From Deltaproteobacteria bacterium (GTDB lineage Bacteria; Desulfobacterota; Syntrophia; Syntrophales; UBA5619): DNA of 32,594 nucleotides. Below the pieces are notes generated by a model. It did not search any database. It saw only the letters and a program-made list of their open reading frames with translations, and was not told where the DNA came from. Positions 555 through 27,133 of the stretch are shown one piece after another. The stretch lies in NCBI GenBank assembly GCA_021817825.1, contig JAKAFS010000042.1, forward strand, positions 1 through 32,594, given 5' to 3'. Every line of letters starts with the position of its first letter. Positions within the stretch are counted from its first letter, which is position 1. The translations under genes were made by a program, and so were the position numbers.

Positions 555-2606
555 CTAAAAGCGATAGCTCATCTGGATAAATCCGATATCCGCCCGGTAC
601 GAGGAATCGCGGTAGGCGCCGGTAAGATAATTAGGGGTTCCCCCCGACAGCGGCGTGTAGAGATATTCGTCGTACTGGGCATCGCTGTAATCGAATTTCT
701 CATGGGCGTATCCCACGGTCACGGAAAGCTCCCGCATCGGCTGGTAGGTCAGCTTGGCGACATAGGAGGTCAGGGTGTAACTGTCCCAGTTTCCGATGTC
801 CACATTGTCCTGGGTTCTTCCGGCCGGCAAGCCGGACAGATAAGAGAAGTCAGCGGACCCATCCGATTTTATGCGGCTGTAGGCAAGGTTCAGCGTCCAT
901 TGCTTCGGAACGATGTACACCTCCGTACCGGCCCCGTAGGCATAGTTGTAATTGACTTGGGTCACGGTCCAGTTGCTCGGAATCGACGTCTGCCGCTGCG
1001 TCTGACTGAGCAGGGCCCTCTGGTAATCGTAGTTGCCGAAGAGTTTCACCCGCTTCAGGAGCAGGTAATCGACATAGAGGTTCAATTCGTTATCCGATTG
1101 TTCATCCATCCCCAGGATGGCTTCCGTATAGCTGGCCCTGGACATCTTGACCCCTGCCGATATATTGAGATCCGCCAGCGGGGTCAGGTCGACGCCGGCC
1201 TTCCAGGTGTCCTTCTTCTGGCTGGCCGCATCAAAGCGCCGGACCCATGTATCGGGATTGGCGGCATCCACGGCCCGGTCGATATCGCCGGTCCGGTCCA
1301 GCCTTTCATATCCCAACCGGGCCGTCAGCGTATCGAGGCCGTTCCACCGCAACTCCGTGGCATAGAGGTTGTCTCTGGTCCGGGTGCTGTCTATCCGGCT
1401 GCGGTGGGTGTCCACGTAGGCCAACGAGCCGCTCAGATAAAAATGCATGGGCAGTTTGAACCCGAGCTCGGTCCCATAGCGGTTCTTGCGGTCATCGAAG
1501 AGCGTGTTGGTGAAGACGGCGGGGACAAGGCTGGGATCCGTCGTCGTGATCCGGTCGGACTTGTTTTTTCGATTGTAAGAGCTGAAAGAAATCTGGGCAT
1601 CCAGGAAATTCAGCGGGCTGGACTTCAAAACGAATGCGGCGTTGTCATTCTGGACCTTTCCATTGAAGACGCTGCTCGTCAGGGCGATCGGCTGCACACC
1701 GAGGTTGGTCAAATAAGAGGTCGACAGGTTGGCCGCCGACCGGGATGTCGAACTGGACAGGTTGAAATTGAAGCTGCTCTGGTAGGGCAGACGGATGGCC
1801 CCCTTCAGGTCAAGCTTCGAGCTGTTGTTGTCGGGGGCGATGGTGTACACGTCCGTTTGTGCCGCCATGACCGCATTGGTGGGATTCCGAAAATACAGGT
1901 TGTTGTTTCCATCCATAAATTGGCTGTAGAAATAGCTCAGGGAGACAAAGACGGGCTTCCCGGCATACCCTGCTTCCATCTGAAAGTTGTTCGTCGTTCT
2001 GTCCACGGGCATGGGAACCTCGATGGCGATATTGCCCGGGGAAAATCCGGCCACCCCCACCGGAAAGACGCCCCTGCTCTGCTCCTGGTTCGCCTTGGCG
2101 CTGAAGAAGAAAGGTTTCAGGAGATCCAGTTTGAAGCCCGCGCCGTAGGACTTGCGGGTCGTCGAATAATCGAAGGTGTTCCAGGTGTTGACATTGGTGG
2201 TCGGCGGGTGGGTCGGATAGGTCAGACGGTTGGACCCGATGCCGTTGTAAATCGATTGGGCGTCATTGGTCAGATGGTGGGGAAGCTCGTTGAAATGGGC
2301 ATCGATCCGGTAACTCCCCCATTTTCCGCCATCGACCTCATAGCGCTGGGTATCGTAGCCGATATCGGCAGCCTCGGCGTCCAGGTGATAGCCCTCCTGG
2401 CGATACCGGGCGTCGAACCCCACAGAGAGCCCCTCCTGGCGGTCCCGGTACTCGTTGAATTTTGCTTCGTTGCCCCCCACCTGCGACACGATCCCGGTGG
2501 CGTAAACGGTCACGTCCAGAGGTTTCACGGCGGCTTTTTCCTCGGCAGCGGGAGCATTCACCGAAAATATCAACGTAAGCAGCAAAGCGCAGGTTATTTT
2601 TTTCAT
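555..2606 (-). CDS. mtrB: MtrB/PioB-family outer-membrane beta-barrel protein
   Basis: This 683-residue protein has a signal peptide (MKKITCALLLTLIFSVNAPA) and then a long series of alternating aromatic/polar strands rich in Tyr, Asn and Ser. It ends SYRF, the terminal Phe expected of outer-membrane barrels. MtrB/PioB proteins form the porin sheath through which a decaheme cytochrome passes electrons across the outer membrane. The decaheme gene is 12 bases upstream, with a GGGGG ribosome site between them, so the two are an operon. Odd point: the only Cys is in the signal peptide, so the mature barrel lacks the N-terminal CxxC found in Shewanella MtrB. PioB and DmsF are equally good family names; the electron donor and final acceptor cannot be read from the sequence. 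Confidence 0.88.
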   Translation of the reverse strand: MKKITCALLLTLIFSVNAPAAEEKAAVKPLDVTVYATGIVSQVGGNEAKFNEYRDRQEGLSVGFDARYRQEGYHLDAEAADIGYDTQRYEVDGGKWGSYRIDAHFNELPHHLTNDAQSIYNGIGSNRLTYPTHPPTTNVNTWNTFDYSTTRKSYGAGFKLDLLKPFFFSAKANQEQSRGVFPVGVAGFSPGNIAIEVPMPVDRTTNNFQMEAGYAGKPVFVSLSYFYSQFMDGNNNLYFRNPTNAVMAAQTDVYTIAPDNNSSKLDLKGAIRLPYQSSFNFNLSSSTSRSAANLSTSYLTNLGVQPIALTSSVFNGKVQNDNAAFVLKSSPLNFLDAQISFSSYNRKNKSDRITTTDPSLVPAVFTNTLFDDRKNRYGTELGFKLPMHFYLSGSLAYVDTHRSRIDSTRTRDNLYATELRWNGLDTLTARLGYERLDRTGDIDRAVDAANPDTWVRRFDAASQKKDTWKAGVDLTPLADLNISAGVKMSRASYTEAILGMDEQSDNELNLYVDYLLLKRVKLFGNYDYQRALLSQTQRQTSIPSNWTVTQVNYNYAYGAGTEVYIVPKQWTLNLAYSRIKSDGSADFSYLSGLPAGRTQDNVDIGNWDSYTLTSYVAKLTYQPMRELSVTVGYAHEKFDYSDAQYDEYLYTPLSGGTPNYLTGAYRDSSYRADIGFIQMSYRF

Positions 2607-2618
2607 GATTTTTACCCC

Positions 2619-3527
2619 CTATCTGACGTTGAATTTCCCTCGTGTGGATGGGCCGTTGTTTCCATGGATATTCGAATGACAGTTCAAACAGGAGTGGGCG
2701 AACATCCGGTTGGAAGGCTGCGGCCCGCTGAAGGTGTCGAAGCGGGTGTAGGCGTTGGACGGGTGACCGGCCGTGTTGTGGCAGCTCTGGCAGAGCATGG
2801 GAACCCTGTTGGTGAGCAGCTTCGAGTGGTTGCTGCCGTGGGGCGCATGGCAGGAGAGGCAGTTCTCCTCCACGGGCGGATGAGCCCACATAAAGGGCCC
2901 CCGCTTTTCGGCATGGCATTGATAGCAGAGTTCATTGGTGGAAGTGCCCTTGATCATCTTGGCGGAGAATCCGCCGTGCGGATCGTGGCAACTGGTGCAC
3001 TTCATCCCCTTTTCCTTGATGGGGTGGTGGGACTGCTTGCCCGTCTGGACGGCGATATCCCGATGGCAGGTGTTGCACAGTTCCGGCTCCCTGGTTTTGA
3101 GGTTTTTCTTCGTTGTCGAATGGGCGGTATGGCAGGAATCACAGGAGACGCCGGCCCGCTCGTGTTTCCCGAGATCCCAGAAGGCCGTTGCGGACTCCTC
3201 GTGGCAGGCGAGGCATCGGGCCGATTTCACCCGGGCATCTTTTGTCTTCTTCCCGAAGGCGATGATGCTGCCCTTTTCGCTGGGTTTCTTCACATGGTCG
3301 CCGCCGGCGCCGTGGCAGCTTTCGCAGCCGTTCTTGTTCGCCGGTGAGTTAGGAACGGCTTTTTGACCGTGGAGGGAGGGCAGGTAGCTGTCATAGTATC
3401 CTGTGTGGCAGCCTTTGCACATCGCAGCGCCTACCAGGGGCTCGCTTCCCCATGCCGACGTCGCCGTGAAACAGCCCCAGAGGAGCAAGAAAGGAATGAA
3501 GCCCTGAAATGCCATGCGTTTTTTCAT
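2619..3527 (-). CDS. mtrA: Decaheme c-type cytochrome, MtrA/DmsE family
   Basis: The 302-residue protein has an N-terminal signal peptide (hydrophobic 8-27) and exactly ten CxxCH heme motifs, starting at residues 37, 68, 105, 129, 151, 177, 201, 223, 246 and 280. Length and heme count match MtrA/DmsE/PioA cytochromes, which sit inside an MtrB barrel and carry electrons between periplasm and cell surface. Extra His residues spread between the motifs are candidates for the second axial ligands. The start ATG at 3527 is preceded by AAAAGGGGGGG. It is the first gene of the operon with the barrel and the one-heme secreted protein. The family assignment is firm; whether the conduit reduces outside acceptors or takes up electrons is open. 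Confidence 0.93.
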   Translation of the reverse strand: MKKRMAFQGFIPFLLLWGCFTATSAWGSEPLVGAAMCKGCHTGYYDSYLPSLHGQKAVPNSPANKNGCESCHGAGGDHVKKPSEKGSIIAFGKKTKDARVKSARCLACHEESATAFWDLGKHERAGVSCDSCHTAHSTTKKNLKTREPELCNTCHRDIAVQTGKQSHHPIKEKGMKCTSCHDPHGGFSAKMIKGTSTNELCYQCHAEKRGPFMWAHPPVEENCLSCHAPHGSNHSKLLTNRVPMLCQSCHNTAGHPSNAYTRFDTFSGPQPSNRMFAHSCLNCHSNIHGNNGPSTRGKFNVR

Positions 3528-7261: not shown

Positions 7262-7290
7262 TTGACAAATCCGGCAGAGAGGTTTATGTT
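7262..7290 (+). promoter_or_regulatory. Sigma-70 promoter of the citramalate synthase leader
   Basis: TTGACA (7262-7267), a 17-bp spacer, then TATGTT (7285-7290). Transcription would begin near 7297, giving a 5' leader of about 244 nt before cimA. Confidence 0.7.
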
Positions 7291-7355
7291 TCCACCACGT
7301 ATGAATTATTTATTTCGTTTGGGGTCGGAAGGGTAATGAAACAGGTTTTTGCAGA

Positions 7356-7402
7356 GATAATTTACGGGGGAATAATTATCGGGCCCACATAGGGGGCCTG
7401 AT
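7356..7402 (+). promoter_or_regulatory. Structured leader RNA upstream of cimA
   Basis: GATAATT (7356-7362) pairs with AATTATC (7374-7380). ATCGGGCCC (7378-7386) pairs with GGGCCTGAT (7394-7402) with one G.U pair; the two helices share ATC. GATAA (7356-7360) plus CGG (7365-7367) could instead pair with CCGTTATC (7445-7452), the left arm of the downstream terminator, forming an antiterminator. No T-box sequence (TGGNACCGCG) and no branched-chain-codon leader peptide are seen; the short frame at 7301-7336 reads MNYLFRLGSEG. Confidence 0.5.
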
Positions 7403-7440
7403 CGGGGAATAGTCTAAGCAAAATAAGACAAAAAACGACG

Positions 7441-7478
7441 AAATCCGTTATCAGGCGCAAGCCGGTAACGGATTTTTT
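7441..7478 (+). terminator. Intrinsic terminator (attenuator) in the cimA leader
   Basis: AAATCCGTTATC (7441-7452) pairs with GGTAACGGATTT (7464-7475). Inside it is a GGC-GCAA-GCC tetraloop hairpin with one bulged A, and a run of six T ends at 7478. It lies 62 bases before the cimA ATG and downstream of the promoter, so it should stop leader transcription unless antitermination occurs. Confidence 0.8.
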
Positions 7479-7540
7479 ATTTCCAGGGAGGTTCCGCCCC
7501 AACAGCAGGACCAAGCCGGAAATCAATCAGGAGAGGGATC

Positions 7541-9136
7541 ATGAAAGCACAGCAGGTCTTCATCTACGACACGACGCTCAGAGACGGGACGCAGGGGGAA
7601 AAGATCAACTTCTCGGCGGAAGAGAAGCTGCGGATCGCCCAGCGCCTCGACGAGATGGGATTCCATTACGTCGAAGGGGGATGGCCCGGCTCCAACCCCA
7701 AGGACGCCCGCTTCTTTGAGATGGCCAAGGGACAGAGGTTCAAGAACGTCCGGCTGACCGCTTTCGGCAGCACGCGCAAGGCTGGCACCCGGCCCGAAAG
7801 CTGCCGGAACATCAGAGCCCTCCTCAAGGCCGAAACGCCGGTCGTCACCATTTTCGGAAAAAGCTGGGACCTCCACGCTACGGAGATCCTCGGGGTCACC
7901 TTGAAGGAAAATCTGACGATGATCCATGATTCCCTAATCTACCTGAAGGAGAAGGGCAAAGAGGTCATCTACGATGCGGAGCACTTCTTCGACGGCTACC
8001 GGAAAAACCAGTCCTATGCCTTAAAAACGATCAAGACGGCCTTCGACGCCGGAGCGGACTGGATCGTTCTTTGCGACACGAACGGGGGGACGCTGCCGCA
8101 GGACCTCACCGCAGCCGTGCAAAAGGTGGCGTCCCTGGTCCCCTTGGACCGCCTGGGCATCCACGTTCACAACGACTGCGGCCTGGCCACGGCCAACACC
8201 CTCGCGGCCGTCCAGGCGGGCGCAACCATGGTCCAAGGGACGATCAACGGCTACGGCGAACGGTGCGGGAACGCCAATCTCATCTCCGTCATCGCCAACC
8301 TCCAGCTCAAGATGAACCGGAGGTGTCTGACCGCAGCGGCCCTCGGACAGCTGACGAACCTCTCCTATTACGTCAGCGAGGTCGCCAACGTCCGGCCCGC
8401 CCCCTACCGGCCTTTCGTCGGGCAGAGCGCCTTCGCCCACAAAGGCGGGGTCCATGTCAGCGCCGTCGCCAAGAACCCCGAGGCCTACGAGCATATCCGC
8501 CCGGAGTTGGTGGGCAACTACCAGCGGATTTTGGTCTCCGACCTGGCCGGAAAGAGCAATATCGCCTCCAAGGCCAAAGAGTTCGGCATCGACGTCGGCC
8601 GCGACGACGCCATGAACAAGAAGATCGTAAAGGAGATCAAGCATATGGAGGACCAGGGGTACCAGTTCGACGCCGCCGACGGATCGCTGGCCCTCTTGAT
8701 GAAAAAGATCACCGGCGTCTTCAAGGAACCCTTCACGCTCCAGTGCTTCAACGTCACCAACAGCAAGGCCGGCCGCCACCCCTCCCAGTGTCTGGCCACG
8801 GTCAAGGTCTCCGTCGGTCGGGAGGTGGAACTGGCCGCCGCCGAGGGGAACGGTCCGGTCAACGCCCTCGACCATGCCCTTAGGAAGGCCCTGGTCAAAT
8901 TCTACCCCCGGATCAACGAGGTGCACCTGGTCGATTTCAAGGTTCGCATCGTGGAGGGAAGCGAGGGAACGGCGGCGCGGGTCAAGGTGCTCCTCGATTC
9001 GCGGGACACTGAGGAGTTGTGGAGCACGATCGGCGTCTCGGAGAACATCATCGAGGCCAGCTGGCAGGCCCTCGTGGACAGCATCCAGTACAAGCTGAGC
9101 AAAGAAAGGTTGAATAAAAACGCCCCGTCGGCCTGA
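7541..9136 (+). CDS. cimA: (R)-citramalate synthase
   Basis: The 531-residue enzyme condenses pyruvate with acetyl-CoA to (R)-citramalate, the first step of the threonine-independent isoleucine route. The HMGL-like TIM barrel (about 5-275) opens with DTTLRDGTQGE (10-20), with the catalytic Arg and metal-binding Asp. The metal HxH is in LGIHVHNDCGLA, and NGYGERCGNANL is the family's Gly-rich segment. The C-terminal part (about 400-525) is the LeuA-type dimer/allosteric domain, where isoleucine feedback usually acts. The length and YDTTLRDGTQGE signature match the CimA type seen in Geobacter-like bacteria rather than isopropylmalate or homocitrate synthase. The ATG has a strong GGAGAGGG site. 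Expression is likely set by the leader attenuator upstream. No other branched-chain amino acid genes are next to it. Confidence 0.93.
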   Translation: MKAQQVFIYDTTLRDGTQGEKINFSAEEKLRIAQRLDEMGFHYVEGGWPGSNPKDARFFEMAKGQRFKNVRLTAFGSTRKAGTRPESCRNIRALLKAETPVVTIFGKSWDLHATEILGVTLKENLTMIHDSLIYLKEKGKEVIYDAEHFFDGYRKNQSYALKTIKTAFDAGADWIVLCDTNGGTLPQDLTAAVQKVASLVPLDRLGIHVHNDCGLATANTLAAVQAGATMVQGTINGYGERCGNANLISVIANLQLKMNRRCLTAAALGQLTNLSYYVSEVANVRPAPYRPFVGQSAFAHKGGVHVSAVAKNPEAYEHIRPELVGNYQRILVSDLAGKSNIASKAKEFGIDVGRDDAMNKKIVKEIKHMEDQGYQFDAADGSLALLMKKITGVFKEPFTLQCFNVTNSKAGRHPSQCLATVKVSVGREVELAAAEGNGPVNALDHALRKALVKFYPRINEVHLVDFKVRIVEGSEGTAARVKVLLDSRDTEELWSTIGVSENIIEASWQALVDSIQYKLSKERLNKNAPSA

Positions 9137-16280: not shown

Positions 16281-19200
16281 TCATTTCACCCCCTTCTTGA
16301 CCACGTTCACCATAAAGGCCTTGCTCTCCGGGATCATGGTGTTGGCGTCGCCGGCGGTCGGGGTCAGCAGGTTCGCGGCGTCCCCGGTGGTGAAAATTTC
16401 GGGCTTCTTGTCATGGGGACCGTACTTGCGATCCGCGGTGGTGATCCAACCGAAATGCCAGGGGATCCCCACCTGATGGATAGTCGCGCCGTCGATCTCG
16501 AAGGGTTTGAAACGGGCGGTGACCACCGCCGTGGCCGAAAGCTCGCCGCGGGCGGATTTGACGATCACCTGGTCGCCGTTGGCAATGCCACGCTCCTTGG
16601 CCAGCTCCTTGCTCATCTCCACGAACATCCCCGGCTGCATCTCGACGAGCCAGGGGCACCAGCGGGTGAGCACGCCGGTCTGCCAGTGTTCGCTCACCCG
16701 GTAGGTGGAACAGACGAAGGGAAAGCGCGGATCGCAGCTGGCGATCAAATCGAGTTCCGAGCCGACGCCCTTTTTTTCGAAGCGACGAATGGCGGGATTG
16801 TGCTTCTGGGGAGACAGGAGGTTTTTCTCCACCGGACACTCCAGCGGTTCGTAGTGTTCGGGGAAAGGCCCGTCGGCGAGGCCCGGTCCGAAGAGGCTCC
16901 CCACGCCGTCGGGCTTCATGATGAAGGGGGGACGGCCGGAGCCGGGATTCCCCACGCCGTCGGGGACATCCCCGGTCCACTTCGTCCCGTCCCAGAGGAT
17001 GACCGGACGCTGGGGATCCCAGGGTTTTCCTGAGGGGTCCACGGAGGCGCCGTTATAGATGATTCGCCGGTTGACCGGCCAGGACCAAGCCCATTCGGGA
17101 TAGGTGCCGATGCCGGTGGGATCCTTTTGCCCGCGGCGGCCCGCGAGATTCGCGGCCCCGTAGGAGCCGCAGTAGACCCAGCAGCCCGACGAGGTCGTGC
17201 CGTCGTCCTGAAGCCAGGCAAAGGCGGGGACCGGATCACCCTTCTTGAACTCCCGGAATTCCCCCTTCTTCGTCGGGTCTTCGACCTTGGCATCTTCCAG
17301 GAAGAAGCCGTTGATCTCCCGGGCCACGGCCTGGGGATCGACGAAGCGGATCGTCCCGTCGGGCCGCTTGGGTCCGTAGTTCCAGGTCAGCTTCGTCAGC
17401 GCCTCCTTGAGGGGGCCGCCTTGCTTTTCGTAGAGGTCCCGAACCTTGTAGAAGAGCTCCGTCATGATCTCCCCGTCGGGAAGGGAATCGCCTAGGGGAT
17501 CGACGGCCTTGTAGCGCCACTGCATGAGCCGGCCGCTGTTGGTGATGCTTCCCTCCTTCTCCACCGAGGAGGCACAGGGAAGCATGAAGACCTCGGTCTT
17601 GATCTTCTTCGGATCCATGCCGGGACCGCGCCAGAAGGAGCCGGTTTCGTTGTCGAAGAGGTTAACGTTCACCAGCCAGTCGAGTTTTCCCAAGGCCTGG
17701 CGGACCTTGCCGGAGTGGGCGCCGCTACAGGCCGGGTTCATTCCCCAGGCGAAAAGGCCGCTGAACCGCCCCTTGAACATCTCGTCGAAGAGGACCAGCC
17801 ACGAGTAGTTGGCGCCGTCGTCCCCCTTGGGCAGGTAGCCGTAGGCCTCCTCCAGCGTGGCGTTCATCCCGTAGACCGACCGCAGATAGCTGACCGAGTA
17901 CTTCGGGAGGTTCTTCATCCAGTTGAGGCTATGGGGTTCTTTGGTCTTGGTCGTGTATTTTTCGTTGTAGGCCGCAAGCGTGGAAAGCGACGCCGTCGGG
18001 GTGGCGATGTACCCCGGCAGGATGTGGTAGAGGAGGCCATGGTCGGTGGACCCCTGGACGTTGGACTCGCCGCGGAGGGCCTGGACGCCGCCGCCGGCGA
18101 CCCCCATGTTCCCCAAGAGGAGTTGGATGATGCTCATCGCCCGGATGTTCTGGACGCCGACGGTGTGCTGGGTCCACCCCATGGCATAGAGGATGTTCCC
18201 GGCCTTCTCGGGTTTGGCCGTCGCGGCGTAGAGTTTGTAAACTTCCAGCAGCTTGGCCTTGGGGGTCCCCGTGATCCGCGAGACGATGTCCGGCGTATAG
18301 CGGGCGTACTGCCGTTTCAGAAGCTGGTAGACGCAGTGGGGGTCCTTGAGGGAGGCATCCTTCCTGATCACGCCGGCGGCGTCGGTCTGATAAGCCCAGG
18401 TCGCCTTGTCGTACTTGCCGTCCGAAAGGCCCGAAAAGACCCCCCGGTTGTCGCCCGGCAGCTTGAAGGCCGGGTTGACCAGAAAGGCGGCGTTCGTATA
18501 GGCAAGGACATACTCCTTCTGGATCAGGTTGTTCTCCAGGAGGTACTTGATCATGCCGCCCAGAAAGGCGATGTCCGTCCCCGACCGCAACGGGGCGTAG
18601 AGGTCGGCCTTTGCCGCCGACTGGGTGAACCGGGGATCGACGCAGATGAGCTTCGCCCCCTTCTCCATCGCCCTGGTGATCCACTTGAAGGAGATGGGGT
18701 GGTTCGCGGCCGGGTTGCTGCCCATGATGAGGATGACATCGGAGTTCTGAAAATCGTTCCAGTGGTTGGTCATGGCGCCGCGTCCAAACGACTCTGCCAG
18801 AGCCGCTACGGTTGCGCTGTGTCAGATCCGGGCCTGGTGTTCGATGTACACCAGACCCAACCCCCGGAGGAACTTTTGGTAGAGGAAGCACTCCTCGTTG
18901 TCCATGGCCGCCGAACCGACGGAGGCGATTCCTTCCGTCCGATTGACCGTCTCGCCTTTGCCGTTTTTGGCCCTAAAGCTCTCATCACGGCTCTTTTTGA
19001 CGTTTTCGGCGATCTTTTCGAGGGCCCACTCCCAGGAAACCTCTTTCCAGTCGGTCGCAAAGGGGGCCCGGTAGAGGGGTTTGCCCAGGCGGTTCGCGTT
19101 TACCGCCATCTGGACGATCGAGCCGCCTTTGGTGCAGAGGGAACCGCGGTTGATGGGACTGTCCGGGTCGCCCTCGGTGTTGACAACCTTGCCGTTGCGG

Positions 19201-19379
19201 GTGGAGACGATGATGCTGCATCCCACGGAACAGTAAGGGCAGATGGTCGTCGTTTCCCTGGCGTACTGGACCTTCAGCGGCTGCGCGTAGGCCGAGACGG
19301 GCTTGAGGCTGATGCCGATGCCGCTCGCTGCCAGCGCCGCGCCGGAGATCCTCAGAAAACCTCTTCTGCTGACATCCAT
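16281..19379 (-). CDS. fdnG: Formate dehydrogenase catalytic subunit, selenoprotein
   Basis: Read as one 1032-residue gene from ATG 19379 (AAGGAG upstream) through an in-frame TGA at 18824-18822 that is selenocysteine 186. The surrounding residues, EHQARI-U-HSATVAALAESFGRGAMTNHW, align with E. coli FdnG at its Sec. A twin-arginine signal (SRRGFLRISGAAL) sends it to the periplasm. The [4Fe-4S] site is CPYCSVGC followed by a fourth Cys in SLCTKG. A molybdopterin (Mo or W) oxidoreductase domain and a C-terminal MopB-binding domain (GDQVIVKSARGELSATAVV) follow. It oxidises formate to CO2, with electrons going through FdnH and FdnI to quinone. A stop mutation is unlikely because sequence similarity continues without shift for 846 residues. 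Function requires selAB/selC elsewhere in the genome. Confidence 0.95.
18788..18824 (-). promoter_or_regulatory. Selenocysteine codon and candidate SECIS hairpin
   Basis: UGA at 18824-18822. Starting 15 nt after it, GCGGCTCT (18806-18799) can pair with AGAGTCGT (18795-18788) over 8 bp including two G.U pairs, with a GGC loop. Position and size fit a bacterial SECIS; the GGCUCU segment lies where E. coli fdhF has its GGUCU loop, though the pairing differs. Confidence 0.65.
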
Positions 19380-23983: not shown

Positions 23984-24451
23984 TCATCCCTCAGTTTTCG
24001 GCCTTCTCCGGAGCCGCCGGCCCTTTTTCAGGCAAGTGCTGCAGATCCCTTCCAACCGCACCTCCACGGCCCGGATCTCGCCGGCAAAGGAACGGCGGAT
24101 CTCGCCGACGTCCACCGTCAGGCTCCCGGGCTGTAGGCATTGCAGGGCGTCGCAGCTTCCGCAATGGAAATGGGGGTGCGCCGGATGGTTCGCGTTCGGC
24201 GCGATGCCGTAGACCAGGCTCCGGCCGCCGCCGCTCAACCGCTCGATCAGCCCCTTTTCCACAAGCCGATCGAGGATGCGATACACGGTGACCCGGTTGA
24301 TCGCCGCGGTCCGGCGGACCGTCGCAAAAATCTCCTGCGCCCGGATCGGCGCCGGGTTGTTCCCGACCACCTCCAGCACCCGCACCCGGTTGGGGGTGGG
24401 GTCCAGGCCGCCGGTTTCGAGCAGTTCAGGATAATTGCAGCGCAGGCACAT
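23984..24451 (-). CDS. zur: Fur-family metal repressor, probably Zur
   Basis: 155 residues from ATG 24451 (GAGG upstream). The winged-helix region includes INRVTVYRILDRLVEKGLIERL (51-72), typical of Fur proteins. Metal sites are the His cluster HPAHPHFH (89-96), CGSC (97-100) and CSTC (137-140), the two CxxC pairs of the structural zinc site. An extra CxxC lies at residues 2-5 (MCLRC). It is the last gene of the znuA-znuC-znuB operon, with its start 11 bases after the znuB stop, which argues for zinc sensing rather than iron. A basic tail (KKGRRLRRRPK) ends the protein. An Mn- or Fe-sensing role is less likely but not excluded. Confidence 0.85.
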   Translation of the reverse strand: MCLRCNYPELLETGGLDPTPNRVRVLEVVGNNPAPIRAQEIFATVRRTAAINRVTVYRILDRLVEKGLIERLSGGGRSLVYGIAPNANHPAHPHFHCGSCDALQCLQPGSLTVDVGEIRRSFAGEIRAVEVRLEGICSTCLKKGRRLRRRPKTEG

Positions 24452-24462
24452 CGTTGTTTCCT

Positions 24463-25314
24463 CTATGCCGCCGGGCGGACCTTTCCGGCGGACGGATCTT
24501 TTTTCGCAGGCAAGGGCTTCAGACGCTGCCACAGCTCTGCCAAAAAGAAACCGGCCGCGGCCACCAGGATAATCGTCGCCCCCGAGGTCAGGTCCAGCAG
24601 ATAGGAAAGCCAGAGTCCCGTGACGGTGAATAGACCGCTTAAGAGCGCCGAGAGCGCCATCATCGCCCGGAGCGAACCGGTGAACCTTTCGGCAATGAAG
24701 GGCGGGATGGTCAAAAGGGCGATCACCAGGATCAGTCCCACCACCCGGATGATCATCACGACGGTGAGGGCCACCATCGCCAGCAACAGAAAGTGGAGGA
24801 AGGTGACCGGCACGTTTCTTAACCTGGCAAACTCATCGTCGTAGGACATGGCGAGAAAATCGTTGTAATACCAGCCGACGACGAGAAGCACGAGACTCCC
24901 GGCCACCGCCATCTGCCACAAATCCGCGGCCGGCACCGCCAGGATGCTCCCGAAAAGGTAGCTCATCAGATCGACGTTGTAGCCCGGCGTGAGATCCAAA
25001 AGGATCACCCCCGCCGCCATCCCCACTGCCCAGATCACCCCCACCGCGGCATCGGCCCGGTGGCGGGCCTTGAGCGTTACCGAGGCCATGACGCCCGCCG
25101 AGAGCAGCGCGACGCCCGTCGTCCCGACGGCGTAGGGCCAGCCCATGAAGAAGGCCAGGCCGATCCCCCCGTAGGCCGCGTGGGCGATGCCGCCGGCCAG
25201 AAAGACGATCCGGTTCACCACCACCAGGGTCCCGATCACCCCGCAGACGATACTCACCAGCACCCCGGCGATCAGGGCGTTGCGGACAAACTCCAACTGC
25301 AGCGCTTCGGCCAT
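24463..25314 (-). CDS. znuB: Zinc ABC transporter permease
   Basis: The 283-residue, highly hydrophobic protein has about eight membrane helices, matching the ABC-3 permease family (ZnuB/TroC): GGIAHAAYGGIGLAFF near the N-terminus, then YLFGSILAVP and VGLILVIALLTIPP. ATG at 25314 lies one base after the znuC stop, so translation is coupled. A longer upstream extension of the frame overlaps znuC and is not used. It moves zinc delivered by ZnuA using ATP hydrolysis by ZnuC. Family members also move Mn or Fe; zinc is chosen from the linked Zur. Confidence 0.88.
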   Translation of the reverse strand: MAEALQLEFVRNALIAGVLVSIVCGVIGTLVVVNRIVFLAGGIAHAAYGGIGLAFFMGWPYAVGTTGVALLSAGVMASVTLKARHRADAAVGVIWAVGMAAGVILLDLTPGYNVDLMSYLFGSILAVPAADLWQMAVAGSLVLLVVGWYYNDFLAMSYDDEFARLRNVPVTFLHFLLLAMVALTVVMIIRVVGLILVIALLTIPPFIAERFTGSLRAMMALSALLSGLFTVTGLWLSYLLDLTSGATIILVAAAGFFLAELWQRLKPLPAKKDPSAGKVRPAA

Positions 25315-25315
25315 C

Positions 25316-26089
25316 TCAGTCGTCCTTCCTCTTTTCCTCGTGTCGGCCGAGCACCCGGTGGGGAACCCCGTGGGCAACGAGATCCACCGGACAGTGGTAA
25401 GCCGCATCGAGCATTTCCCGGGTGATTTCTCCGGAGTCGTGATGATAGAGATCCCCGTTGACACAGGCCACGGATTTCACGTGGCTGGAAAGGATCATCA
25501 GGTCATGGCTGACCGCCACGATGGTGACGGTCCGGTTCAACGCCTGGAGCGCCTCATGGAATTCGCCGCGGCTCTGGGCATCGATGCTGGCCATGGCCTC
25601 GTCCAAAAAGAGGATCTCGGGGGCTGAAACCAGCGCCCGGGCGATGAAGACGCGCTGTAGCTGGCCGCCGGAAAGTTCGCCGATCCGTCGGTCCCGATAG
25701 TCCCAGACCCGCATCTGCTCCATCGCTTCCTGGGCGGCGCGCCGATCTTCCCGGCTATGGCGGGACCAGCCCCGGCTGGCCCGCAGACGTCCCATGAGGA
25801 CCACAGCGAGGACGGAAACCGGGAAATCCTTGTTGATATGGACGTTCTGCGGCACGTAACCGATGCGCTGCGACACCCGGCGCGGCGGTTCGCCAAAAAC
25901 GGCGACCGATCCCCGCCTGGGGGTGTAAAGGCCGAGCATCAGCTTCAGCAATGTCGTTTTTCCCCCGCCGTTGGGACCGATGACGATCAGGAAATCCCCC
26001 CGCGGCACCGTCAAATTGACCCCCGAGAGCACCGGCTGGCCGTTGAAGGAAAACCACAGATCACGCACTTCGATGACCGGTTCCGTCAT
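25316..26089 (-). CDS. znuC: Zinc ABC transporter ATPase
   Basis: 257 residues from ATG 26089 (AAAGGA upstream, 10 bases after the znuA stop). Walker A is GPNGGGKT (38-45), the signature is LSGGQLQRV, Walker B is ILFLDEA, and the switch His is in VAVSHD. A C-terminal tail of about 50 residues is rich in His and Cys (LYHHDSG, DAAYHCPVDLVAHGVPHRVLG), as in several ZnuC-type ATPases, and might bind metal to tune transport. Operon with znuA, znuB and zur. Confidence 0.9.
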   Translation of the reverse strand: MTEPVIEVRDLWFSFNGQPVLSGVNLTVPRGDFLIVIGPNGGGKTTLLKLMLGLYTPRRGSVAVFGEPPRRVSQRIGYVPQNVHINKDFPVSVLAVVLMGRLRASRGWSRHSREDRRAAQEAMEQMRVWDYRDRRIGELSGGQLQRVFIARALVSAPEILFLDEAMASIDAQSRGEFHEALQALNRTVTIVAVSHDLMILSSHVKSVACVNGDLYHHDSGEITREMLDAAYHCPVDLVAHGVPHRVLGRHEEKRKDD

Positions 26090-26099
26090 GATCGTCCTT

Positions 26100-26996
26100 T
26101 CATCGCGCCGCCGCTCCGAACTTCCGGCCCACATCGCGCAGATTGGCAGCCCAGTCTTCCGCCATCGGATCGGCGACCACCACCTGCCCGCCGATCTCCC
26201 GGGCCAGCAGCTCGGCGCTCTTGGCGGAGAACTGCGGCTGGACGAAAATAACGGCGATGCGGCGCTCCCGGGCTTGCCGAATGAGCTTTTGGAGTTGCGC
26301 CGCCTTGGGCTCTTTTCCCCCGCTTTCGATGGGAATCTGCCTCAGTCCATAGGCCGCGGCGAAATATCCCCAGGAGGGGTGAAAAACCATGAACTGCTCC
26401 CCTTTCCGGCCGGCGAACAGCGCCTTGAGTTCGGCGTCCAGCGCGTCGATCTCCTGCAAAAAGGAGGCGCAACGGGCCTCATAATCCGCTCGGTGCAGAG
26501 GATCCGCGACGCTCAGGCCGTCGCGGATCTTTTCGGCCTGGCGCTTCGCCAGGGGCGGTGCAAGCCAGATATGGGGATCCGGTGCGCCCGCGTCATGACT
26601 GTGGACTTGCGATGCCGGCCGCGCCGCCTTTTCCCGCGGGTCCTCTCCGCCGGCGGCCAGCTTGGCGATTCCCTCGTCGGTACGGACGATGCGCAAGCGG
26701 GGATTGGCGGCGGCGATTTTTTTCAGCCAGGCCTTCTCGAATTCGACGCCGATCGCAAAATAGACGGCGCTTTGGGCAAGCGCGGCCATCTGTCGCGGCT
26801 TGGGTTCGAACTGGTGCGGATCGGCGCCGGGGGGAACCAGAACGGAGACGGTCACGAGCTCGCCGCCGATCTTCTGGACAAAATACTTCTGGGGGGCAAT
26901 GCTGACAAACGCCTTCACCGCGGCGGCTTCCGCCGTCAACGTCGTCGCCAACAGCAGAATCCCCACACCAACCGCTTGCCGCCACCGTTTTCCCAT
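26100..26996 (-). CDS. znuA: Zinc-binding periplasmic protein of ABC transporter
   Basis: 298 residues from ATG 26996 (GAGGGG upstream); an earlier ATG at 27116 gives an N-terminus without a signal and lies upstream of the inferred transcription start. A signal peptide (about 1-25, VGVGILLLATTLTAEAAA) is present. The cluster A-I metal site is clear: His61 (GADPHQFEP), His142 (PDPHIWLAP), His206 (VFHPSWGYF) and probably Asp276 (VVADPMAEDW). The mobile loop before His142 is short and holds only HSHD, rather than the long His-rich loop of E. coli ZnuA. That makes Mn/Fe binding a minor alternative; the linked Zur favours zinc. First gene of the operon. Confidence 0.87.
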   Translation of the reverse strand: MGKRWRQAVGVGILLLATTLTAEAAAVKAFVSIAPQKYFVQKIGGELVTVSVLVPPGADPHQFEPKPRQMAALAQSAVYFAIGVEFEKAWLKKIAAANPRLRIVRTDEGIAKLAAGGEDPREKAARPASQVHSHDAGAPDPHIWLAPPLAKRQAEKIRDGLSVADPLHRADYEARCASFLQEIDALDAELKALFAGRKGEQFMVFHPSWGYFAAAYGLRQIPIESGGKEPKAAQLQKLIRQARERRIAVIFVQPQFSAKSAELLAREIGGQVVVADPMAEDWAANLRDVGRKFGAAAR

Positions 26997-27100
26997 CTCG
27001 CAACCCCTCTTCCGCTTATCGCCTTTTTCGTGCAACACCGTATCATCGGCTTTTGTCTTTGCGCCTCCGGTTACGGCAAGAAATGGCGATCGTTTCCCTG

Positions 27101-27133
27101 TGCAATCTAGTTGCATCGGAAAATCCTTGTCAA
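27101..27133 (-). promoter_or_regulatory. znu promoter overlapped by operator-like palindrome
   Basis: On the minus strand TTGACA (27133-27128), 18 bp, then TAGATT (27109-27104). TGCAA-N5-TTGCA (27101-27115) is a palindrome sitting over the -10, as expected for repression by the operon's own Fur-family protein. Its half-sites are not the E. coli Zur box, so binding by Zur is inference. Confidence 0.6.

Follow-up and report, generated by a model that had tools for sequence, protein, structure and literature searches.

A putative isoleucine attenuator upstream of the citramalate synthase gene in Syntrophales

Citramalate synthase, encoded by cimA, opens the citramalate pathway of isoleucine biosynthesis. 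In the stretch of DNA analysed here (the window, 32,594 nucleotides of a Syntrophales genome), a leader of about 240 nt separates the cimA promoter from the gene and carries a terminator, raising the question of whether such an RNA would sense isoleucine supply by binding a metabolite, by binding a tRNA or by being translated. An earlier inspection of the letters alone (hereafter the sequence-only reading) proposed a possible new attenuator or riboswitch. Its attenuator half stands, as mutually exclusive helices and a terminator do precede cimA, while its metabolite-sensing RNA gives way to a translated, isoleucine-rich leader as the predicted sensor. Taken together, the evidence argues strongly, with a probability of roughly 0.94, that cimA is under ribosome-mediated transcription attenuation by isoleucine supply.

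Layout and folding of the cimA leader

The features of the leader are collected in Table 1. Its promoter motif recurs among relatives, TTGAC[AC] being found 140–330 nt 5' of cimA in 69 of 85 of them, and the product of the downstream gene scores 733 bits against the citramalate synthase model, for which the cut-off is 450 bits. Both the promoter and the gene had been recognized in the sequence-only reading, as had the helix at 7378–7402 and the strong terminator with a GCAA loop (given there as 7441–7478), and all four are borne out. Where it went wrong was in seeing a single leader frame without any run of Ile, Leu or Val codons: it presumably referred to the short frame at 7301–7336, which is probably incidental (none was seen in the leaders of relatives), and the very next frame was missed. 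This second frame, encoding MKQVFAEIIYGGIIIGPT, has isoleucine at 5 of its 18 codons (ATA ATT ... ATA ATT ATC), three of them consecutive. The last Ile codons, the final one lying at 7378–7380 or immediately before, lead straight into region 1 of hairpin 1:2, and the stop codon (7390–7392) sits inside the loop of the same hairpin.

Table 1. Positions of the promoter, leader elements and regulated gene in the window
Feature	Position	Strand	Details
Sigma-70-type promoter, TTGACA-17-TATGTT	7262–7290	+	10/12 consensus matches; -10 box at 7285–7290
Short frame, MNYLFRLGSEG*	7301–7336	+	Stop overlaps the leader-peptide start by one base (TAATG)
Leader peptide ORF, MKQVFAEIIYGGIIIGPT*	7336–7392	+	Five Ile control codons; purine-rich GGAAGGG just 5'
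Ile control codon stretch of the leader ORF	7357–7380	+	From sequence; GGIII-type motif conserved in relatives
Region 1 (5' arm of protector hairpin 1:2)	7378–7386	+	From folding, -15.2 kcal/mol, and relatives
Region 2 (3' arm of hairpin 1:2)	7394–7402	+	GCCTGAT at 7396–7402 doubles as 5' arm of the antiterminator
Region 3 (5' arm of terminator)	7441–7456	+	ATCAGGC at 7450–7456 pairs with region 2 in the antiterminator
Region 4 (3' arm of terminator and T-run)	7461–7480	+	From folding and relatives
cimA, citramalate synthase (regulated gene)	7541–9136	+	TIGR00977

Elsewhere in the window, on the minus strand, the gene for a formate dehydrogenase alpha subunit (16281–19379) contains an in-frame TGA that is read through at the usual selenocysteine site (IEHQARI-U-HSATVAAL), a zinc uptake cluster (23984–27116) combines a FUR-family regulator, an ABC transporter and a ZnuA-type binding protein, and an MtrB/PioB-type outer membrane barrel adjoins a multihaem cytochrome c (555–3527), a pair that could possibly form an outer-membrane electron conduit.

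As a whole, the cimA leader folds more stably than its shuffled counterparts (z -4.2). In the window, hairpin 1:2 comprises nine pairs (z -3.6), and the terminator hairpin (7441–7475, -19.9 kcal/mol, z -6.2), which was absent from the output of a simple consensus scan, carries the GCAA loop followed by the T-run. The GCCTGAT of region 2 is the exact complement of the ATCAGGC of region 3, and the folding of the window places helices 1:2, 2:3 and 3:4 in the classical order, each excluding its neighbours. When bases up to 7388 were blocked and region 4 was not yet made, as if a ribosome stood at the final Ile codons, the minimum free energy structure became that of the antiterminator, GCCUGAU/AUCAGGC; with bases up to 7404 blocked, as for a ribosome at the stop codon, the antiterminator was impossible and the terminator alone was left (both footprints are assumed). 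The leader combines, in one place, a leader ORF, a terminator (3:4), an antiterminator (2:3), a protector hairpin (1:2) at the control codons and a matching target gene, since the Ile-rich ORF lies before a gene of isoleucine biosynthesis, namely cimA and, in a second copy, ilvB.

Conservation among relatives

Within the window's family, we located cimA in 20 of 21 genomes, and within the order in 128 of 155. Nearly all cimA leaders of the order share the layout of an Ile-rich upstream ORF (uORF), region 2 and terminator, and the same leader occurs in a metagenome-assembled genome named Syntrophus aciditrophicus (L086). The uORFs of the window's family are of the kind ...GGIIIGPT or ...GGIIIGPAYRGLSGG, those of other families include MNGTALSAIIAIIIIGIIRPEDPGA and MKINTIIIIINGIIIRPPHIKGLIMV, and the corresponding elements of relatives are of the type CCTGATAATGG for region 2 and AAATCCGTTATCAGG...CCTGATAACGGATTTTTT for the terminator. 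Two leaders (L009 and L010) have just 2–3 Ile codons. Within the window's own family, one cimA leader (L021, genome G004) is without the element altogether and another (L018, genome G019) keeps the terminator with the Ile-rich uORF missing; an assembly error is possible in either case. Applied to cimA leaders from Geobacteraceae, Paenibacillus, Nitrospirae and other groups, the same terminator and uORF scan mostly found no terminator.

The simplest alternative would be an unregulated arrangement, in which a constitutive promoter is followed by an ordinary terminator and a short ORF arises by chance. Indeed, the Ile count of the window is only modestly above that of shuffled sequences (5 versus 2.05), and 3% of the shuffles have at least as many in their best short frame, so it is conservation that carries the argument. 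Across 75 leaders, an average of 7.44 Ile codons is found in the best uORF, compared with 2.0 in dinucleotide-preserving shuffles treated alike, and isoleucine makes up 28% of uORF residues as opposed to 5% in the genes of the window. Given that the uORF, region 2 and the terminator are conserved across the families of one order, and that a second copy lies before ilvB in the same genome, we regard a chance ORF in an unregulated leader as scarcely credible.

Base pairing was counted on alignment A2, which holds 69 leaders. The terminator is paired in 96% of cells, with slid controls at 27–47%, and changes on both sides occur in 6 of its 13 pairs (51 cells). The antiterminator 2:3 is paired in 89% of cells, with slid controls at 29–49%, and a second count, confined to 7396–7402/7450–7456, gave 91–92%. 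By comparison, the antiterminator put forward in the sequence-only reading, 7356–7367 with 7445–7452, is paired in 53–57% of cells, and the accompanying helix at 7356–7380, an AT-rich match between the two clusters of Ile codons, pairs in 55–63% of relatives' cells; we set both aside. A comparison of relatives' leaders, as the same reading had suggested, yielded compensatory changes in the terminator and no Rfam match, and its 7356–7380 helix was not conserved.

Against shuffles, the covariation of the antiterminator is mixed: its 17 double-change cells are reached by 2 of 500 shuffles, but when the pairs showing such changes are counted instead, 290 of 500 shuffles do as well. Region 3 is used in both 2:3 and 3:4, so covariation is limited by this joint constraint. 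In one leader (L093) the antiterminator extends to 15 continuous pairs. The conservation evidence is weaker for hairpin 1:2 than for the antiterminator and terminator; its mean z in relatives is -1.7, with 45 of 69 leaders below -1, and its register shifts between families, the support coming from folding energies and not from column covariation. At the level of sequence, then, the comparison establishes the leader ORF with its conserved Ile content, helices 2:3 and 3:4, and their conservation in the order.

A translated sensor and its alternatives

Exclusive helices and a terminator in front of a biosynthetic gene are also what one would expect of a metabolite-binding riboswitch, which would recognize isoleucine, 2-oxobutanoate or citramalate and act on the terminator without translation, and absence from the known Rfam classes leaves room for an unknown class. 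However, apart from the uORF, region 2 and the terminator, the RNA alignment is variable and holds no conserved aptamer-like core. What is conserved further upstream is an ORF rich in Ile, uninterrupted between its start and stop codons and preserved as a peptide throughout the order. In addition, the leader codons follow the pathway, being Ile-rich before cimA of Syntrophales and Ile/Leu/Val-rich before ilvD. We therefore consider a riboswitch very improbable, and it is the previously missed leader ORF, rather than covariation or an Rfam match, that decides against it.

A T-box or other tRNA-binding leader would sense uncharged tRNA-Ile directly, and T-boxes are well known to control isoleucine genes in other bacteria. 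The Rfam T-box model matched neither the window nor the whole genome, in agreement with the sequence-only reading, and such a leader seems next to inconceivable here. More broadly, no Rfam 15 family reached its gathering threshold in the window or in the tested leaders of relatives. Weak matches to STnc240, sR28 and Six3os1_3 (E 0.8–9.5) lie far under the gathering scores and were dismissed as chance, that to STnc240 falling mainly on a terminator stem.

Ribosome-mediated attenuation, as known from the trp, his and ilv operons, accommodates these observations, and for the cimA leader we infer the following scheme, including activity of the promoter, translation of the ORF, ribosome stalling and which condition favours read-through. 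RNA polymerase would start a few bases past the -10 box, followed by a ribosome that translates MKQVFAEIIYGGIIIGPT. With charged tRNA-Ile in short supply, the ribosome would stall at the Ile control codons, covering region 1 and blocking hairpin 1:2; region 2, freed in this way, would pair with region 3 to form the antiterminator, and transcription would enter cimA. When isoleucine is plentiful, the ribosome would instead reach the stop codon, region 2 would be either covered or released into hairpin 1:2, and the terminator 3:4 would form and end transcription before cimA.

Stalling might conceivably also come from an arrest peptide, with a GGIIIGP or GIIRP motif acting in the exit tunnel beyond the effect of Ile-tRNA shortage alone. 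The motif GG-III-GP/RP around the Ile run is fairly conserved, but the G-P/R-P codons form part of region 1, and their conservation can be ascribed to this position in an RNA helix; moreover, the motif varies between families while Ile richness persists. An arrest peptide consequently appears most unlikely in comparison with attenuation by isoleucine supply.

A variant of the attenuation model concerns the codons themselves. ATA accounts for 54 of the 215 Ile codons (25%) of the leader ORFs, compared with 67 of 1023 (6.5%) in cimA of the same genomes. The Fisher p for this enrichment, about 1e-13, makes it look stronger than it is, since leaders of related genomes do not count as independent observations and share the conserved run GGCATAATTA. 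In alignment A2, GGCATAATTA is conserved at the nucleotide level in the cimA leaders of the order. Rare codons such as ATA would sharpen stalling, and the attenuator might sense mainly the AUA-decoding, lysidine-modified tRNA-Ile and not isoleucine generally, a refinement that we hold to be doubtful. If true, such a switch could signal the state of tRNA modification, or a bottleneck at a rare tRNA, in addition to isoleucine supply.

Further copies and relation to known leaders

A covariance model built from the leaders (R1) has matches in 135 of the 155 genomes that represent the class. Across the phylum, 46 of 395 sampled genomes are matched, of which 30 lie outside the order. The window's own genome contains a second copy (C96:66580-66715; L200:581-716) directly 5' of ilvB (TIGR00118), with the leader peptide MHLSRLPGGVFIGGLIISGIISPSHKGSW, and in other genomes of the order (L201–L204) second copies with Ile-rich leaders precede ilvB-like genes, identified by their N-terminal sequence. 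Outside the order, several matches lie before ilvD (NCBIfam check on L207), three before cimA (L209, L213 and L218, of which L213 was checked), and others before leuA (L217, also checked) and ilvB (L210, identified from its sequence). Leaders of ilvD outside the order mix Ile, Leu and Val codons (MKKLSAIYSLINLIIVLVVGILPHCEEGA); ilvD acts at a step common to Ile, Val and Leu synthesis, and mixed leaders would be fitting for an enzyme of the shared pathway. The cimA leaders of L213 and L218 also carry Leu and Val runs, which would not be expected in those lineages if control were specific to Ile alone. The terminator sequence that the elements share across the phylum suggests that they are homologous rather than convergent.

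In its anatomy, the cimA leader resembles the enterobacterial ilvGMEDA (ilvL) and other ilv attenuators: a short leader rich in end-product amino acids, an Ile run beside a hairpin arm coding for Pro/Gly, alternative 1:2, 2:3 and 3:4 helices, and a T-run terminator before the gene. It differs in its target, cimA, in its mainly Ile control codons and in its occurrence in Syntrophales, the likeness being one of anatomy. T-box leaders (RF00230) likewise report aminoacyl-tRNA shortage through a terminator, but they sense uncharged tRNA directly and without translation, whereas the cimA element would be translation-coupled. In the ilvB-II, ilvB-OMG and ilvB motifs, uORFs rich in branched-chain codons and terminator stems precede ilvB and have been read as attenuators (PMC10272879); the targets described here, by contrast, include cimA and ilvD. 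Every leader compared with Rfam here, those of ilvB in Syntrophales included, scores below the gathering score of each family, although Rfam may not model the motifs of that study. Leader peptides recovered by terminator screens belong to the same mechanism class, and the main text of that work mentions neither citramalate, Syntrophus-type organisms nor isoleucine (PMC2965389). A survey of Rfam motifs suggested that amino acid attenuators may have arisen in gammaproteobacteria and undergone few transfers, and reported isoleucine/valine attenuators to be absent from Rfam (PMC3766115).

In the searchable literature, which leaves most subscription journals outside reach, we found no description of leader-peptide control of cimA, nor of leader-peptide control in Syntrophus or the syntrophic-anaerobe lineage. 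The principle of attenuation is ordinary; the target gene cimA and the lineage appear to be new. The leader would place citramalate synthase of these syntrophic anaerobes under an attenuator centred on isoleucine, and its alignment could become a new Rfam family. Furthermore, the targets ilvB, ilvD, leuA and cimA differ in their leader codons, so that the attenuation model may be checked against the end products of the respective enzymes.
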